From: a virus
Direction: 5' to 3' (one strand)
DNA: 64,000 bases
Virus record (IMG/VR): IMGVR_UViG_3300030329_003470
Location: 62,001-126,000 of that record
The position numbers and the translations under genes were made by a program. Shown piece after piece: positions 8,039-62,121 of this stretch. The notes beneath the pieces are model-generated. The model did not search any database and was not told the DNA's origin. It worked only from the letters and a program-made list of their open reading frames with translations. How positions within the stretch are numbered: position 1 is the stretch's first letter; every line of letters starts with the position of its first letter.

Positions 8039-8896
8039 ATGACTGAAAATATCAACCCGTTACAAAAGTATTATAGACAACCAGCAATCTATATCAAACT
8101 GCCTTCTGAGGGCAGGTACTACGATAAAAACGTTTTTACACCGTCAGAAACAGGCGAAATACCAATATTGCCAATGACTGCAAAGGACGAACTGACATTT
8201 AAAACTCCTGATGCTATGATAAACGGTCAAGCCACAGTGGACGTGATTAAATCATGTGTGCCAAACTTGCTGGATCCGTGGAAAATGGTGAACTATGACA
8301 CTGACACAATTTTGTTAGCAATAAGAATTGCCACATATGGTGAAACAATGAATATTAAATTCGGCGTTCCAGTAACAGGTACTCAACAAGAACACACAGT
8401 CAACTTGTCTGCTATTCTAGAACAACTAGGAAAAGTCAAAATACAAGATTACGCAACAACATCCAAAGGATTTAAAATAAAAATTAATCCGTTGACATAC
8501 GATTCTCTAACAAAAATTCAAATAGCAAGATTTGAACAGCAAAAAATATACGGTACAATTAATTCCAGCACATTAACAGAAGAACAAAAACAAACAGCCT
8601 TTGCAAAAAGTTTTGAAACACTGAACACAGTTAATTTTAGTTTGTTGTTGGACTCAATTGGCGAAGTTACAACGCCTGATGGAATCACAGTTACTAACAG
8701 AGAACAAATTATTGAATTTTGTAACAAAGCAGATTCAAAAACAATAAAAGAAATTGAAGCAAAACTTTCGGAGTTGAGAGTACAAGCACAAACTCCACCA
8801 CAGAAACTTAAAGCAACAGATGAGCAAATAAAGGCAGGTGTCCCGGCAACTTATGAAGTACCAATGACATTTGACAACTCAAATTTTTTCGGATAA
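8039..8896 (+). CDS. gp26: gp26-family baseplate hub / tail assembly protein
   Basis: The 285-residue product has the pattern of the T4 gp26 family: YYRQPAIYIKLPSEGRYY, IPILPMTAKDELTFKTPDAM, INGQATVDVIKSCVPNLLDP, and DTDTILLAIRIATYGETM. T4 gp26 (208 residues) is listed as a baseplate hub protein. Its reported absence from the finished baseplate would suit a chaperone. The last codons before the stop read N282-F283-F284-G285 over the bases AAT TTT TTC GGA. The TTTTTTC at 8884-8890 is in the correct phase to be a -1 slippery site, and the -1 frame is then open to 9120. The gene lies 80 bp from the divergently oriented tape measure gene. Confidence 0.85.
   Translation: MTENINPLQKYYRQPAIYIKLPSEGRYYDKNVFTPSETGEIPILPMTAKDELTFKTPDAMINGQATVDVIKSCVPNLLDPWKMVNYDTDTILLAIRIATYGETMNIKFGVPVTGTQQEHTVNLSAILEQLGKVKIQDYATTSKGFKIKINPLTYDSLTKIQIARFEQQKIYGTINSSTLTEEQKQTAFAKSFETLNTVNFSLLLDSIGEVTTPDGITVTNREQIIEFCNKADSKTIKEIEAKLSELRVQAQTPPQKLKATDEQIKAGVPATYEVPMTFDNSNFFG
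8884..8890 (+). promoter_or_regulatory. Probable programmed -1 frameshift site TTTTTTC
   Basis: The bases fit X-XXY-YYZ read in the gp26 frame: T (8884), TTT (8885-8887), TTC (8888-8890). A one-base backward slip keeps Phe pairing in both sites, and the next codon is CGG at 8890. The -1 frame then stays open for 76 codons to TAA at 9118-9120. The zero frame ends only two codons later, at 8894-8896. Only a weak downstream stem (GTC/GAC arms around 8910-8922) could be seen by eye. Confidence 0.65.
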
Positions 8897-9174: not shown

Positions 9175-9495
9175 ATGTCTGAACGAGATCTAGTCAAAGA
9201 ACTCAAAACCCAAATCGCTGACCTGACTGTAGACAGAGACGAGGCACTAGCGAAAGTCAAAACCAAAGAGGCGAGACTTAAACAAGTTATGATCAAATTA
9301 GAACACGCCACGGGCGATGTACAGAATGTGGGTCATAGAGTTGCGGAAAGAGACAAAGAAATTGCCACACTAAAAGCCAAACTCGAAACCAAAGACAAGT
9401 TGTTACAAGATGCGTTAAAAAAAATTAAGGGCATATATGAAGACTCGACAGAAAAAGAAGAAGATCAAAAAGAAATCTCAGAAGACGAAGAGTAA
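9175..9495 (+). CDS. Small coiled-coil protein, function unknown
   Basis: A 106-residue, highly charged protein (MSERDLVKELKTQIADLTVD, then RDEALAKVKTKEARLKQVM) with unbroken heptad pattern through about residue 85, so a single long helix or coiled coil is likely. It ends in an acidic tail of Glu and Asp. No enzyme motif is visible. Its last 59 bases overlap a second, lysine-rich ORF in the +1 frame. It lies with the tail-assembly genes, but its role cannot be inferred. Confidence 0.65.
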   Translation: MSERDLVKELKTQIADLTVDRDEALAKVKTKEARLKQVMIKLEHATGDVQNVGHRVAERDKEIATLKAKLETKDKLLQDALKKIKGIYEDSTEKEEDQKEISEDEE

Positions 9496-9568: not shown

Positions 9569-9571
9569 CAA

Positions 9572-9619
9572 AGATGGTTTACAACCATCTGAAACTCGCT
9601 TACGCTCGTTTCTTTTTTT
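9572..9619 (+). terminator. Rho-independent terminator region, two hairpins and a T-run
   Basis: A perfect 8-bp stem AGATGGTT/AACCATCT with a 3-base loop spans 9572-9590. A second hairpin with GAAAC/GTTTC outer arms follows (9591-9612), and TTTTTTT at 9613-9619 follows directly. It closes the gp26 transcript before the non-coding region. Confidence 0.7.
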
Positions 9620-9631
9620 AACTTAACGCAG

Positions 9632-9978
9632 TATAAAAAAACTTGAACGCAATTTGCGTCCTATGTGGCAGATGAGCAGTCACAATACGGCTATTTCTAG
9701 CCGTACTGACTTTAACCCATGTGGCGAGTTCGCAGTCACCATACATCGTTACCAAATTGGCCGGGCGGTTGTGCTGTACCCGTTAACTCATACTTCCAAC
9801 GCGAGCCTACTATGCCTTTGTATGATAATTCATAATAGACTTGAGGTTGCTTTTTCTCAGAGCCTCTTCATTTTTGCTGTTTGCATCAAGGGATTCACCT
9901 GTCGCTTGTTAGCCGCATTTCCCTGCTCACTGGTCGAGATGCTATGTTTGCCTGATTGAAATTGTGATGTGCCTATCG
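9632..9978 (-). ncRNA. Putative structured non-coding RNA, class not identified
   Basis: This ~350-bp stretch has no convincing ORF on either strand and looks less AT-rich than its surroundings. Read on the minus strand it contains a perfect 8-bp hairpin TACGGCTA-GAAA-TAGCCGTA (9687-9706). A GNRA tetraloop appears only on this strand. It also contains two copies of the hairpin GTGAC-(9 nt)-GCCAC (9664-9682 and 9720-9738), an AGGGA...TCCCT pair nested in GCATC...GATGC, and GAGG...CCTC. It ends in a short ACGC/GCGT hairpin (9647-9659) followed by TTTTTTT (9635-9641), an intrinsic terminator for the minus strand. A promoter-like sequence lies at 9983-10011. It does not match tRNA, tmRNA acceptor, RNase P or group I core motifs that I know. 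The 5' end is approximate. Confidence 0.5.
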
Positions 9979-9982
9979 CATA

Positions 9983-10011
9983 TGTTTATATGAGTTTTCT
10001 TTTAAGGTCAA
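9983..10011 (-). promoter_or_regulatory. Sigma70-like promoter for the minus-strand ncRNA
   Basis: On the minus strand TTGACC (10011-10006) is followed after 15 bases by TATAAA (9990-9985), or after 17 bases by TAAACA (9988-9983). Initiation about 7 bases later would put the RNA start near 9976. It differs from the TATAAATA late box and would allow early, host-polymerase transcription of the RNA. Confidence 0.4.
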
Positions 10012-10028: not shown

Positions 10029-10466
10029 ATGATTATGAATTGGCAGTACCAAGGAAAAGACATTGTAGAATTACCAAATGATTGTGTAGGATTTGTTTAT
10101 CAAATAACAAATACAACCAATGGTAGGATGTATATTGGCAAAAAATTAGCAAGATTTAGAAAGTCACGTAGACCTTTAAAGGGCAGAGTTAACAAACGTA
10201 GGTACACTGTGTCCAGTGATTGGCAACATTACTATGGTTCGAGTGATGCTTTAAATGAGGACATTGAAAAATTTGGTAAAGATAATTTTAAAAGAGAAAT
10301 ACTTTTCTACTGCAAATCAAAAGCAGAACTATCATACATTGAAGCCAGAGAACAGTTTGCACGTAAAGTTTTAGAAACTGATGATTATTATAATGGTCAT
10401 ATTCGTGTGCGAATACACGGTTCTGGAATTCTCAGAGAAAAATCTACAAAGGGTATTTTAAAATAG
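10029..10466 (+). CDS. GIY-YIG family nuclease (homing endonuclease-like)
   Basis: From the ATG at 10029 (or 10035) the product is about 145 residues: MIMNWQYQGKDIVELPNDC, then GFVYQITNTTNGRMYIGKKL, which is the GIY-YIG core in the form VYQ...MYIGKK. DWQHYYGSSDALNEDIEKFG and EAREQFARKVL follow, as in T4-like phage Seg/GIY-YIG proteins; the helix with EAREQ carries the likely catalytic Glu. Such enzymes are usually free-standing homing endonucleases. The reading frame continues upstream to 9969, but that part overlaps the ncRNA promoter and looks non-coding. A strong bidirectional terminator follows. Confidence 0.8.
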   Translation: MIMNWQYQGKDIVELPNDCVGFVYQITNTTNGRMYIGKKLARFRKSRRPLKGRVNKRRYTVSSDWQHYYGSSDALNEDIEKFGKDNFKREILFYCKSKAELSYIEAREQFARKVLETDDYYNGHIRVRIHGSGILREKSTKGILK

Positions 10467-10524: not shown

Positions 10525-10713
10525 TTACGCCGCCTTAGCCGCGTTTTTCGCCTCTTGAATTTCTTTTCTTCTTGCTTTGATCAATTTAGAAAGATTCGCT
10601 AATGCTTTTCTGGCTCTTGTTGCAGATGCCTTAACACCCTTCTCTGTGAACTTGCCGTTCTCTTCAGAGTAGTTTTGAATCTCTGTCATGATCTGTTCAT
10701 GTGTTTGTGACAT
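10525..10713 (-). CDS. Small basic histone H1/Hc1-like nucleoid protein
   Basis: A 62-residue protein whose second half (SATRARKALANLSKLIKARR followed by KEIQEAKNAAKAA) follows the pattern of chlamydial Hc1 and related DNA-binding proteins, which share RVR-x5-LxKLxKxxRKE. It is basic and helical, with an Ala/Lys C-terminus. An AGGAAGG ribosome-binding site precedes the ATG. It is a single-gene transcript bounded by a terminator. A role in compacting phage DNA or altering host nucleoid structure is inferred. A structural helix without DNA binding cannot be excluded. Confidence 0.5.
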   Translation of the reverse strand: MSQTHEQIMTEIQNYSEENGKFTEKGVKASATRARKALANLSKLIKARRKEIQEAKNAAKAA

Positions 10714-11304: not shown

Positions 11305-12091
11305 CAAAACATTATATCCAATTGAAGACAAATATCTTTTGAAAATAAAAAATGATTTTTTTGCAACTAATCAAAAACAAGTGCAATCAAAAGACTTTAT
11401 TTTACAAGCAAACGAATGGTTTCAAAGTACAAAATTAAACAACTTGTCTGGATGGGACAAATTTACTCATATGGATGTAATGTTAGGTTGTACGCATTTT
11501 ATAGAGGCAACTTGTCTGCGATATGGGTGGAAAATACAGCACCTTCCAAACGAATATCTTTATTATACACTTAACGGAAAACGTCCAACACAAATAGATC
11601 AATTAAAAGAGAATGTACCTTTGATAATAAGTTTACCCATATGGCAATATTGCGATATACATCCAGAATGGGATAAAATTTTAAAGATCTGTGAAGAAAG
11701 AAATATTAATATTCATATAGACGGTGCTTGGTTCCAATCTGCTAGAAATATTGAATTTGATTTTGATCATCCAAACATACAAAGTTTTGGTATGAGTATT
11801 GGAAAAGGACTTGACTTACAATGGAATAGAATAGGATTAAGATGGAGTAGACAAAAATCAATTGATAGTATTACTCTTATGAACCAATGGGATCAAATGC
11901 ATCACACAGCAATCACGTGTGGTTCTTTTATTATGAATAATGTTGAAAAAGATTATGCTTGGAACAAATATAGTGAAGCAAATGAAAAAATTGCTAAACA
12001 AAATTCTTTACAACAGACAAATAGTTGTCATGTATTAAAAGATAATAATAATAATTTATGGGGAATAGGAAAAATTATTTCTAAACAATAA
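11288..12091 (+). CDS. PLP-dependent aminotransferase-like protein, short form
   Basis: A 267-residue protein containing NIHIDGAWFQSARNIEFDF and SFGMSIGKGLDLQWNRIGLR. The D-G-A-W followed by S-x-G-K-G-L and a NRIGLR strand is the arrangement of fold-type I aminotransferases: Asp to the PLP ring nitrogen, Lys as Schiff base. It is much shorter than the usual ~400 residues. The N-terminal and C-terminal small-domain parts appear reduced, so the activity or substrate is uncertain. Its end overlaps the convergent gp46 gene by 11 bases. Confidence 0.6.
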   Translation: MSDSVSKTLYPIEDKYLLKIKNDFFATNQKQVQSKDFILQANEWFQSTKLNNLSGWDKFTHMDVMLGCTHFIEATCLRYGWKIQHLPNEYLYYTLNGKRPTQIDQLKENVPLIISLPIWQYCDIHPEWDKILKICEERNINIHIDGAWFQSARNIEFDFDHPNIQSFGMSIGKGLDLQWNRIGLRWSRQKSIDSITLMNQWDQMHHTAITCGSFIMNNVEKDYAWNKYSEANEKIAKQNSLQQTNSCHVLKDNNNNLWGIGKIISKQ

Positions 12092-13856
12092 TTTCAACAT
12101 CATTAGCATAGTTTGTAAATCCATTTTCTTTTACAACTTTTAGTACTGAATTTACTCTGCTTACCAATTCGTCTTTGTGAGATATTAAAAATATATTTTT
12201 TTGTTGTGTTCTGCTCATGTCTTTTAGCACCGCCATTGAACTTTCAACACCCGATATATCCATACCAGCATCTACAAGTTCATCAATAAACAACAAGTTG
12301 ATCTGTTGATAAAGTGATTCCCATACATCTCTGAATGCCCAACTTAAACTTAATATCAATCTGTTTCTTTCACCTCTGCTTAAATTATCAAAGTCTAGTT
12401 CTCTACCAAGTTCTTCAATACGCACAGTCAAGTCTGGTTGGAAAACAACTGTGTGTGGCAATTTTACTTTGCCTAAGAAAAATGCTAAACGTTGATTTAG
12501 ATATGTTAAGTTTTGTTCAATTATTCTTGTTCTTATAAACGAATCTTTTGCAGTTAACAATTTATATAAGAATTCTTGGTGTCTGTGCAAGTCTTCCATT
12601 TCGTTAACTTTAGTATAATCAATTTTTTGTATTGCCTTTTTAGTTAATTCTTCTATTTGTTCAGCATACGGGTCATTTTTCTTTTCAGTTTGTTCTAATT
12701 GACGTTGTAAATCTTTTAATGAACCTTTATGATTGTATGCTTCATCAATACTGTCATAATAAGTGTCAGGTGTTTGTCCTAGATCACCTATTGTATCAAT
12801 GTCTTGTTGTATTTTTGCAAGATCACTTTTTAATTTCTCGCTGTATGTTTTACTTTCAGTAAGTGTTTCTGTTAATTGTTCAGTTAAATGTTTATGTTTT
12901 TCGTCATGAAGTGATTGTTCACAAGTTGGACATTTTGCATCTTTGGCAAATTCTAAATCAGTTTCTGTTTTTGTTATGTTTGTTTCTGCTTTAGTTAAAC
13001 TATCTTCGTGATATGCTTTTTCTTTGTTTAAACTTAATTGTTTAATGTAATTTTCATTGTGTTTTTGTAATTTTTTGTGTGCATCAAGTTCTGCTTTAAT
13101 GTCTACTTTTTCCAATTCTGCTATTGCTTCGTTAAATTTTGCAATATCTTCTTCTTTTTGTGTTTGCCATGCACTTGATCTTATTTTTAAACTTTCAATA
13201 GATTCTTGTATTTTTTCATTTGATGACATTTTTGAATCTATTTTGTATTTTTCTTCCAGAACTTCTGTTTTAGTTGCCTTCATTTTTTCTTTAAGCAAGT
13301 CTGCTTTTTGAGATAATAATGTTATACCAAGCAACTGCTCAATAATTTCTCTTTGTTCTGCTTGTTTGGTTGCTAAAAATGGTAGTGTATAAGTGTTCAA
13401 TGCAATTATGTTTTTAAACATAGCAAGAGTCATACCAACCAGTTTATTAATTTCTTGTTGTGTTTCTCTGTTTTCACCTTGTGCTTCGTTGCTGTCTGTA
13501 TTTTGTTCAATATTGTTTGCATAGAATTTAAAGATGCCAGGTTTTCTACCTCTTTCAATAGTATATTCTACATTATTTTTAACAAACTTAACACTAACTA
13601 ACATTCCTCTTTCGTTAGTTTTGTTTACAAGATTATCTCTTCTAATGTTTGTTAGTGCTTCACCGTAGAACACATAAGACAATGCATTGATAATAGTTGT
13701 TTTACCTGTACCGTTTCTAGCACCAGCATCATCACCACCCAAGTCTAAGTTTTCACCAATAACTAAAACTAAATTTTTATTGGCAAAGTTTATACTTTGT
13801 GTAGCATTACCCACACTCATAAAGTTTTTAACTGTAAGTTCTTTAATTGTTAACAT
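12081..13856 (-). CDS. gp46: Recombination endonuclease subunit gp46 (Rad50/SbcC-like ATPase)
   Basis: A 591-residue SMC-type ATPase. It has a Walker A in GARNGTGKTTIINALSYVFY, long coiled-coil arms, a zinc-hook CPTCEQ near residue 310, the signature LSRGERNRLILSLSWAF, and a Walker B/D-loop region NLLFIDELVDAGMD ending with FLISHKDEL. With gp47 it makes the T4 gp46/47 complex that resects DNA ends for recombination-dependent replication. T4 gp46 is 560 residues. It starts inside the end of the gp47 gene (14-base overlap). Confidence 0.95.
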   Translation of the reverse strand: MLTIKELTVKNFMSVGNATQSINFANKNLVLVIGENLDLGGDDAGARNGTGKTTIINALSYVFYGEALTNIRRDNLVNKTNERGMLVSVKFVKNNVEYTIERGRKPGIFKFYANNIEQNTDSNEAQGENRETQQEINKLVGMTLAMFKNIIALNTYTLPFLATKQAEQREIIEQLLGITLLSQKADLLKEKMKATKTEVLEEKYKIDSKMSSNEKIQESIESLKIRSSAWQTQKEEDIAKFNEAIAELEKVDIKAELDAHKKLQKHNENYIKQLSLNKEKAYHEDSLTKAETNITKTETDLEFAKDAKCPTCEQSLHDEKHKHLTEQLTETLTESKTYSEKLKSDLAKIQQDIDTIGDLGQTPDTYYDSIDEAYNHKGSLKDLQRQLEQTEKKNDPYAEQIEELTKKAIQKIDYTKVNEMEDLHRHQEFLYKLLTAKDSFIRTRIIEQNLTYLNQRLAFFLGKVKLPHTVVFQPDLTVRIEELGRELDFDNLSRGERNRLILSLSWAFRDVWESLYQQINLLFIDELVDAGMDISGVESSMAVLKDMSRTQQKNIFLISHKDELVSRVNSVLKVVKENGFTNYANDVEIIV

Positions 13857-14862
13857 CTAAATCGTTGTAAATTGCTGTTAATATGTTTTTGTCATATGTT
13901 TCAGAATCTACACCTTGTAATTGTTTAATAACAATTTGATCAACACTATCAAATTTTTGCACTTCAACTGTAGGCTGTTGTGCTTGATCAAGTTGTTCTG
14001 GTATTAGTTGTAATTCTCTTAATTGATATTTGTCAATAAATGTTTCTCGTATAAAGTTTGCTTCTTCATAAGATATTTTTATATCCAATGATACTCTTAC
14101 ATACATTTTTGGTTTTAAATGTTTTTCAGGATCTGCCAACAATTCAGATATTTTTATTGTTCTATATCTTGGCATATCCGGCCAATTAATATATTTTGGT
14201 TTGTTGCCGTATTCTATTATCATCATACCACGTTCATCATCCCAAGCGTCTGCGTAGTTGTGCGGAAATGCATTACCCATATAAGTTACATTTGCGTTTT
14301 GTTGTCTTTTATGGAAGTGTCCTGAGAAAACTTCTCCACAATTTGCAAAGTGTTCTGTTTTAATAGTTCCAACATCTGGCATATCTACCATTGCGTTCAT
14401 TTTAAAATACGGAAGTTCAAAGTGTCCAAACACATATTTTTGTTTCATTTTTTGTATTGTTTTCCATTCATCTCCAACCACCCACGGAATAATTGCAACG
14501 TCATCTTCAACAATCCATTCATTAACAAGATGTATGCCTGGAATATTTCTAATATATTCCATTGAATTAATTTCTCTTTTTTCTCTGTAAAATAAATCGT
14601 GATTACCCATTATTACATAAACTTTTTCAAACGCCGCACCTAGTCTTTCCATATTAGATACAGTGTAGTTCATTGTAGAAACGTTGGTTGCTGATCTTTG
14701 GTGGTGCCAATCACCTAAGAATATACAAGTTTCGCAACCGTGTGCTTTGGCTTGTTCAATAAACCAATGAATAAAAGATTCACAATCATCATTGTGTACT
14801 CTAGAATTTCCTTTTAATCCAAAGTGTATGTCTGTAAAACAAGCGACTTTTTTAAAAAACAT
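13843..14862 (-). CDS. gp47: Recombination endonuclease subunit gp47 (Mre11/SbcD-like)
   Basis: The 339-residue protein has the metallophosphoesterase motifs in order: CFTDIHFG, TCIFLGDWHHQR, VIMGNHDLFY, and FSGHFHKRQ. These hold the two metals of Mre11-type nucleases. T4 gp47 is 339 residues, the same length. It lies just upstream of gp46 on the same strand and overlaps it. The start at 14862 is three bases after the gp55 stop, so 55-47-46 form one leftward operon. Confidence 0.95.
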   Translation of the reverse strand: MFFKKVACFTDIHFGLKGNSRVHNDDCESFIHWFIEQAKAHGCETCIFLGDWHHQRSATNVSTMNYTVSNMERLGAAFEKVYVIMGNHDLFYREKREINSMEYIRNIPGIHLVNEWIVEDDVAIIPWVVGDEWKTIQKMKQKYVFGHFELPYFKMNAMVDMPDVGTIKTEHFANCGEVFSGHFHKRQQNANVTYMGNAFPHNYADAWDDERGMMIIEYGNKPKYINWPDMPRYRTIKISELLADPEKHLKPKMYVRVSLDIKISYEEANFIRETFIDKYQLRELQLIPEQLDQAQQPTVEVQKFDSVDQIVIKQLQGVDSETYDKNILTAIYNDLDVNN

Positions 14863-60661: not shown

Positions 60662-62121
60662 GAGTATTAGGTATTAATTGTATGAATCACGATGCCGCAA
60701 TGGCAGTAGTAGATTTTAGTAGTGGCATAGGAGAAGTACTATGGGCCGCTCATGCTGAACGTTATTCAAAAGTAAAAAATGATTTTCATTTAAATTGGGC
60801 AATAGTAAATGAAGCAAAAACATACGGTCCTTTTGACAAAGTTGTTTATTATGAAAAACCTTTATTAAAAAAAACAAGACAATTATATGCAGGACAATAC
60901 AATGATGCATTTAGTTATACTGAAATGCCACAGAGACATTGTGGTATATTTGGAATTAAAATAGATGAGTTTGTACTACATCATGACAGTCATGCCGCGG
61001 CAGGATATTTTACATCACCTTTCAAAGAAGCCACAATACTTACAGTGGACGCAATAGGTGAATGGGATACTGTTTCTATATCAACTGCTGAAAAAGTTTG
61101 GATAGAAAGAAAAGAAACTATAAAGTATCCACACAGTTTAGGTATATTGTATTCTGCATTTACACATCGTTGTGGATTAAAGCCTGCAGAAGAAGAATAT
61201 ATTTTAATGGGCATGGCGGCATATGGCAAGCCAATTTATAAAGAGGACATATATGAAGATTTTGTAGAACAAAGTCCTTTTAAACTCAAAAAGAATTTGC
61301 ACAGAGGATTAAGTGATTGGCATCCAGAAGCAGATGTTATGGATCTTGCCGCAAGTATACAATCAGTTACAGAAGAATGTCTTGCAGGACTATGGCATAG
61401 AGCGAGTAAGTATGGATCACGTAATTTAGTATATGCTGGAGGAGTAGCATTAAATTGTGCCGCCAACAGAGTACTTGCAAATTTGGGATTGTTTGACAAT
61501 ATATGGATTATTCCAAACCCAGGTGATGCAGGAAGTTCGTTAGGTTGTATTGCCGCAAGTGAGAAAACATTTATTAATTGGAAAAGTCCGTTCTTAGGAC
61601 ACAACATAGAAGGTGAATATCCAGTAGATAAAATTATAAAAGAATTAAAAGAAAATAAGATGGTAGGAGTTGCAAATGGTAGAGCAGAGTTTGGTCCCAG
61701 GGCACTTGGTAATAGATCTCTTTTAGCAGACCCACGTGGTCCAGAAATTAAGGATTTGGTAAATGCAATTAAGAAAAGACAGAAGTTTAGACCCTTTGCA
61801 CCAGCCATATTAGAAGAGGATGTAAACGACTATTTTGAACTACCTAAAGGTGTTTTAAACACCCCTTATATGCAATATACAGCGGCGTGTACGCATGGTA
61901 AAGACTTTCCTGCCATAATACACTACGATAACACAAGTCGCGTACAAACCGTCTCTAAAAGCGATAATGAAGGGTTTTATGAACTGCTTAAAGCATGGAA
62001 AAAAGAAACAGGGTGTCCTATGTTGTTAAACACGAGTTTGAATATTAAGGGTCAACCAATAGTAAATGACGTTAATGATGGTAAAGCATTTACCAAAAAA
62101 TATGGAGTAAAAGTATTATAA
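60658..62121 (+). CDS. Carbamoyltransferase (NodU/CmcH/TobZ family)
   Basis: A 487-residue protein with the family blocks in order: MRVLGINCMNHDAAMAVVDF, HHDSHAAAGYFTSPFKEATI, a GGVALNCAANRVLANLGLFD nucleotide-binding strand, GRAEFGPRALGNRSLLADPR, KFRPFAPAILEEDVNDYFEL and CPMLLNTSLNIKGQPIVNDV. It would carbamoylate a sugar or related hydroxyl group with carbamoyl phosphate and ATP. It is shorter than NodU (~560-600). Its stop overlaps the epimerase start by one base, which suggests action on the same glycan. Confidence 0.9.
   Translation: MRVLGINCMNHDAAMAVVDFSSGIGEVLWAAHAERYSKVKNDFHLNWAIVNEAKTYGPFDKVVYYEKPLLKKTRQLYAGQYNDAFSYTEMPQRHCGIFGIKIDEFVLHHDSHAAAGYFTSPFKEATILTVDAIGEWDTVSISTAEKVWIERKETIKYPHSLGILYSAFTHRCGLKPAEEEYILMGMAAYGKPIYKEDIYEDFVEQSPFKLKKNLHRGLSDWHPEADVMDLAASIQSVTEECLAGLWHRASKYGSRNLVYAGGVALNCAANRVLANLGLFDNIWIIPNPGDAGSSLGCIAASEKTFINWKSPFLGHNIEGEYPVDKIIKELKENKMVGVANGRAEFGPRALGNRSLLADPRGPEIKDLVNAIKKRQKFRPFAPAILEEDVNDYFELPKGVLNTPYMQYTAACTHGKDFPAIIHYDNTSRVQTVSKSDNEGFYELLKAWKKETGCPMLLNTSLNIKGQPIVNDVNDGKAFTKKYGVKVL

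Follow-up and report, generated by a model that had tools for sequence, protein, structure and literature searches.

Locus and Overall Organization

The DNA analyzed in our study (the window) was a stretch of 64,000 nucleotides (nt) covering positions 62,001–126,000 of the viral record IMGVR_UViG_3300030329_003470, which is 196,581 bases long and carries T4-type genes. A 106-amino-acid (aa) gene, which ends at 9495, and a SegE-like GIY-YIG nuclease gene, which starts at 10029, enclose a region that had been proposed in an initial annotation as a gene-free, minus-strand non-coding gene (9632–10011). The proposal was borne out by homologues and covariation. The open reading frames (ORFs) in the region were not conserved and were broken by internal stops in nearly all homologues (104/107 and 102/107). 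The RNA was found to carry one 7-nt word twice, in two modules, and the two copies changed together between lineages. The RNA gene and its structural elements are as follows:

9572–9980, minus strand: structured RNA gene, with predicted ends (start immediately downstream of the −10 box, end with the second 3′ hairpin)
9883–9942, minus strand: 5′ domain, P1 (GCATC/GATGC) around P2 and P3; 95.6%, 94.5% and 71.4% paired, respectively, with double changes
9842–9867, minus strand: P4 hairpin, 98.9% paired, double changes in 3/5 pairs
9804–9841, minus strand: P5 hairpin of 11 base pairs (bp), 97.4% paired, double changes in 9/11 pairs
9796–9801, minus strand: 5′ strand of pseudoknot PK2 (GUUG), paired in 55/55 sequences
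9761–9783, minus strand: P6 hairpin, its loop holding the PK2 3′ strand (CAAC), 100% paired
9739–9744, minus strand: 3′ strand of pseudoknot PK1, 99.4% paired, double changes in 5/6 pairs
9719–9739, minus strand: P8 hairpin holding repeat 1, weakly supported (75% paired)
9686–9705, minus strand: P9 hairpin with a GAAA loop, between the repeats, 100% paired, double changes in 3/9 pairs

Secondary Structure and Covariation

Loci were fetched by the baseplate hub protein, the GIY-YIG protein or a conserved RNA string, followed by iterated nhmmer searches. Homologues of the RNA were present in 196 of the 223 fetched loci, and 107 of them were distinct and of full length. The covariation set comprised 55 distinct sequences and a structure of 56 pairs, which was paired in 95.9% of cells compared with 82.4% in shuffled controls. 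Sliding the partners by 1–3 columns reduced pairing to at most 42.5%, a contrast that is favored by the procedure, in which the alignment was built without the structure and the structure was drawn on one aligned sequence. The double changes are independent of this, and double-change cells numbered 430 against 112 ± 12 in the shuffles. The compensatory changes expected of a structured RNA were found in the homologues, together with two pseudoknots, and this comparison among homologues is decisive.

PK1 is formed between the P5 loop TCATAC (9820–9825) and the downstream strand. Its own strands paired better than swapped strands in a set that included chromosomal relatives and relatives of the type described by the Rfam family RF01718. 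PK2 was nearly invariant; two compensatory pairs were seen in locus L087 alone, and loci L092 and L098 carried GUCAU/AUGAC. The 5′ domain falls in the portion that RF01718 models in relatives. The 8-bp GAAA-capped hairpin noticed earlier on the minus strand corresponds to P9.

The Duplicated Word

The two repeats lie on either side of P9:

9719–9739, minus strand: repeat 1, GUGACUGCGAACUC with the word GCCACAU (9719–9725)
9663–9683, minus strand: repeat 2, GUGACUGCUCAUCU with the word GCCACAU (9663–9669)

Repeat 1 has the layout ACUC-word and repeat 2 the layout AUCU-word. The covariation analysis, for which no anchors were chosen, yielded column pairs that changed together yet were identical rather than complementary. 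The word was compared in 97 RNAs (94 from phages and 3 chromosomal). Positions 0–5 matched between the two copies in 97/97 RNAs, and position 6 matched in 93% of them. Control pairs across lineages agreed in about 30–53% at the variable word positions, and the controls for the first six letters stood at about 45%. Identity was near the control at −6, −5 and +10 to +13 and intermediate at +8 and +9, and the fixed anchors consistently differed between the repeats (CUC and UCU). Accordingly, the match between the repeats is confined to the 7-nt word. Gene conversion as the source of the identity was disfavored, because the identity does not extend past the word.

About 20 forms of the word were seen, and they differ between lineages; forms other than that of the window include ACCACAG, AGCACAU, ACUACAA, AACGUGAUG, AGAUGAU and GGAUGAU. 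A purine in the first position and an A at position 5 are fixed. The initial annotation had described a duplicated GTGAC-N9-GCCAC hairpin. Both repeats are indeed present, but hairpins formed by GUG/CAC pairing (GTGAC with GCCAC) were rejected, since GTGAC is invariant whereas GCCAC changes, each change being copied in the other repeat.

Promoter and Ends of the RNA

The sequence elements at the two ends of the gene are as follows:

10006–10011, minus strand: −35-like TTGACC, with a similar element upstream of aligned homologues
9985–9990, minus strand: −10-like TATAAA, with an A/T-rich −10-like element in aligned homologues
9635–9661, minus strand: hairpin and U7, a possible terminator in the window copy that varies among homologues
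9591–9612, minus strand: hairpin GAAAC-GAGC-GUAA-GCGA-GUUUC, with tandem G·A pairs and a GNRA-type loop
9572–9590, minus strand: last conserved hairpin

TTGACC and TATAAA are present and similar elements recur across the aligned homologues, but a simple scan for promoters, taken by itself, gave no more hits than chance (6, with 6.0 expected). An alternative −10-like TAAACA at 9983–9988 gives a spacing of 17 nt.

At the 3′ end, the hairpin and U7 taken earlier as the terminus exist, but they vary from homologue to homologue, and structure is conserved as far as about 9572. The RNA probably runs beyond the U7 to that point, because the conserved tandem-G·A/GNRA hairpin stands 3′ of the second word; this GAAAC...GUUUC hairpin was found in 99 of 111 phage loci, compared with 3 after shuffling, and also in the chromosomal copies L418 and L435. 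The plus strand of the same hairpin, with the following T7, could also terminate the hub operon. The single-sequence fold of 9632–9988 was modest (z −2.0 on the minus strand and −0.6 on the plus strand). The extended RNA (9571–9980) folded better, with a z of −3.4, a value reached in 0/100 shuffles.

Genomic Conservation and Neighboring Genes

The genes of the window that bear on the position of the RNA are as follows:

8039–8896: baseplate hub gene (PF12322)
10029–10466, plus strand: SegE-like GIY-YIG gene (PF19835), a neighbor but no obligate partner, variable in orientation and distance
12081–14862: gp46/gp47-like genes

The gene order was constant, with a tape-measure-like gene, the hub gene, a small gene, the RNA on the opposite strand, gp46 and gp47. 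The place and strand of the RNA were unchanged in about 190 loci, whatever the neighbors. In 83 of the 120 loci found via the RNA string, the GIY-YIG gene was divergent from the RNA and within 600 bp of it. The nuclease gene lay on the RNA's own strand in one branch, was elsewhere separated by 0.5–2.7 kilobases (kb) of other genes, and was undetected in loci L114, L122 and L109. Since the RNA is fixed in the gene order while the nuclease varies, the RNA is a core element in a large family of T4-like phages, with the nuclease as its neighbor.

Four of five bacterial-genome contigs with the RNA string showed the same phage gene order, and these four are most simply explained as phage contigs binned into metagenome-assembled genomes (MAGs). 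Searches with blastn found no homologue in public phage records (queries: the window, L098 and L094) or in plasmids (query: L094). The cultured jumbo phages Atu_ph07 and Phosso, which have the same gene order, showed no clear homologue of the RNA. Sinorhizobium phage Phosso has a gene-free, hairpin-rich stretch of about 1 kb (L226:10223–11238) in the syntenic place between the hub and gp46/47 genes, with no detectable homology. Most relatives retain a small Hc1 histone-H1-like gene (PF07432; window 10525–10713) between gp46 and the RNA. Many close relatives have, immediately 3′ of the RNA and on its strand, a 256-aa gene whose family is unknown (L046:2720–3490 and relatives); the window lacks this gene at that position.

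Relation to RF01718 and Chromosomal Copies

The window RNA matched no Rfam family at the gathering cut-off. A permissive scan gave chance matches only, with no RF01718 at E ≤ 10, and there was no match in the window to group I introns, tmRNA, GOLLD, HEARO or IMES. Rfam searches of loci L062 and L079 gave nothing above chance, and no RF01718 in L079. A group I intron with a homing endonuclease was rejected, as no Rfam intron match was found and the RNA lies between intact genes. The suggestion of an independent phage RNA belonging to no class described in Rfam was thus supported, the nearest class, RF01718, being reached through relatives only.

The RF01718 model is 141 nt long, covers the 5′ half only and has a gathering cut-off of 37 bits. 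The syntenic relatives L094, L102, L097, L092, L071, L070, L098, L090 and L099 matched it with 80–114 bits and shared PK1, PK2, the word pair and the 3′ hairpin with the window RNA. Direct profile similarity between the two branches was weak (best E 1.1 one way and 2e-4 the other way). An iterated profile united the window branch and the RF01718-type branch, and the gene order was common to both. Judged from sequence, the window RNA is a diverged relative of RF01718 in shared architecture and descent, though not filed as a member, because intermediate sequences, synteny and the shared architecture connect the branches. RF01718 (Polynucleobacter-1) is a motif from 2010, whose listing names Burkholderiales and fresh water but assigns it no role (Weinberg et al. 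2010, PMC2864571). Unlike in that listing, the window belongs to a viral record, and its close relatives are in viral and MAG contigs. The literature on Polynucleobacter-1 or DUF6641 held nothing beyond the 2010 table.

RF01718 was above the cut-off in 3 of 399 genomes from the order of a betaproteobacterial MAG, in one case on a 1.95-Mb contig. Three chromosomal copies were divergent from a DUF6641 gene, and the chromosomal copies kept PK1 and the word pair, with the words AACAAAAG, AGCGAAA and GGCGAAAG. A small tyrosine recombinase gene stood 3′ of the RNA in two of them. The host alone does not account for the word, because genome G063 carries two RNAs with different words (AGCGAAA and GTGAAAG).

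Several further observations were made around these copies. A ZorD1-like (Zorya) gene lies near one chromosomal RNA copy (L419:11262–15257). Genes for DUF6641 (PF20346), which is also a PHROG, were present at L418:9184–9621, L419:9873–10340 and L420:1466–1966 and in L421–L438, sometimes several per genome. The AlphaFold2 model of DUF6641 had a predicted local distance difference test score (pLDDT) of 86 and no PDB match (best E 0.25). The divergent neighbor of DUF6641 varies, being an RF01718-type RNA, a second RNA type or small ORFs. The second RNA type, unrecognized by Rfam, was seen upstream of DUF6641 in L433, L437 and L432; it has the same two-word plan, in which the paired words GTGAAAG, AGCGATG and AGCAATG follow CCTC and CCTA. 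In L421, L426 and L438, a conserved non-coding stretch, CGCGGGTTGNNATACGTCGGCTAA.GAGCCCGCACT, with no Rfam non-coding RNA match, lies downstream of small ORFs beside DUF6641.

Comparison with Other RNAs

GOLLD, ROOL and OLE are also large, complex RNAs of unclear role and are partly phage-borne (PMC12286853). Compared with them, the RNA of the window is shorter and has no Rfam match, and the window contains no tRNAs (zero by ARAGORN/Rfam, which also gave no tmRNA). Multi-seed small RNAs and sponges of the LhrC and RsaE type repeat one recognition sequence within an RNA and have small, simple folds. The repeated recognition sequence is common to both, but here the word varies between lineages and is carried on a pseudoknotted scaffold. 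The bridge RNA of IS110 has two recognition modules sharing sequence in one structured RNA, the shared part being the core dinucleotide. In contrast, the shared word here is longer than that dinucleotide and the RNA is not mobile in phages; no IS110 recombinase was seen among the neighbors of the RNA. VIPR vrRNA is a phage-related RNA said to recognize nucleic acid, with alternating GGY/NN motifs (preprint PMC13142463). That alternation was not seen in the window RNA.

Possible Function of the RNA

The two copies of the word keep their identity under change, and the identity is limited to the word, which implies that a reader outside the RNA encounters one word at two sites. We give a probability of roughly 0.5 to a stand-alone, trans-acting structured RNA in which the same word in two modules contacts one kind of nucleic-acid partner. 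The pseudoknotted scaffold would display the word in the two modules (ACUC-word and AUCU-word), and both would contact the partner, making the RNA a double-seed antisense RNA, a decoy or a guide. It would act in trans, its word would be read by base pairing, and the partner would lie outside the phage genome. The wide variety of words is in keeping with a partner that base-pairs. Across the 196-kb genome, the complement of the window word occurred at the expected level (10 and 6 sites, with 11 and 7 expected). The word itself was weakly in excess downstream (40, with a control mean of 24 and a maximum of 37), in a place that was not constant.

Several points weigh against this explanation. Transcription of the minus-strand RNA is predicted from sequence features. 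The word anchors were picked partly by identity, and 13 of the 107 phage RNAs, which had no CUC/UCU anchors, were excluded from the 97; most of these 13 still showed a shared word. Complements of the word showed no excess in the RNA itself (0 exact, compared with 2.8 by swapping), were not enriched in the 4-kb flanks, and at orthologous sites in 12 phage genomes did no better than permuted words. Moreover, a sequence-specific protein could equally require two identical words.

Such a protein is a possible reader, though we lean against it. The words would then be sites for a sequence-specific RNA-binding protein or endoribonuclease, paired to serve a dimer or a double cut, and would track the specificity of the protein. 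The fixed features of the word and the failure of any complementary partner to turn up in the RNA, the flanks or the phage genomes are consistent with this, and the two words in G063 would suit element-specific proteins. However, no gene was found to accompany the RNA in phages and bacteria alike, and the words are numerous for a protein code.

A cis-acting leader or riboswitch is unlikely. The Polynucleobacter-1 table entry would permit a cis role (Weinberg et al. 2010, PMC2864571), and the 256-aa gene follows on the RNA strand in many close relatives. However, conserved hairpins intervene between the RNA and that gene, and a gene of this type is missing in the window, L030, L184, L094, L090 and L114. 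The RNA is not generally a leader, because these same phages, the window included, have no same-strand gene directly downstream. Still less probable is an element acting as DNA (recombination sites or an origin), with the words as DNA sites and transcription incidental. Words of 6–8 nt resemble recombinase overlap lengths, and the tyrosine recombinase stands 3′ of two chromosomal copies; against this are the extensive RNA-type pairing, the minus-strand G–U pairs and the pseudoknots, and no recombinase was among the window neighbors examined. A homing-type form of the mobile unit of RNA and GIY-YIG endonuclease raised in the initial annotation can practically be set aside: for all the nuclease genes lying divergently within 600 bp, the RNA stays put without co-movement while the nuclease flips, moves off behind intervening genes or goes undetected, and no group I intron was matched.

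Returning to the trans-acting RNA with a nucleic-acid partner, a broader proposal may be offered tentatively, although we hold it rather doubtful. The RNA could represent an undescribed form of RNA-directed recognition, in which a pseudoknotted RNA of phages and bacterial mobile DNA carries a lineage-specific 7-nt address twice, for two copies of the same nucleic-acid target, with the address interchangeable between elements. New in our study are the full architecture, the core-gene status in phages and the duplicated word. What was an orphan motif in Rfam thereby becomes an RNA class that is widespread, has a complete architecture and is at home in a large group of T4-like phages. Two identical words changing in concert form a rare signal, and an external reader of the word, met twice, would make the partner directly searchable.
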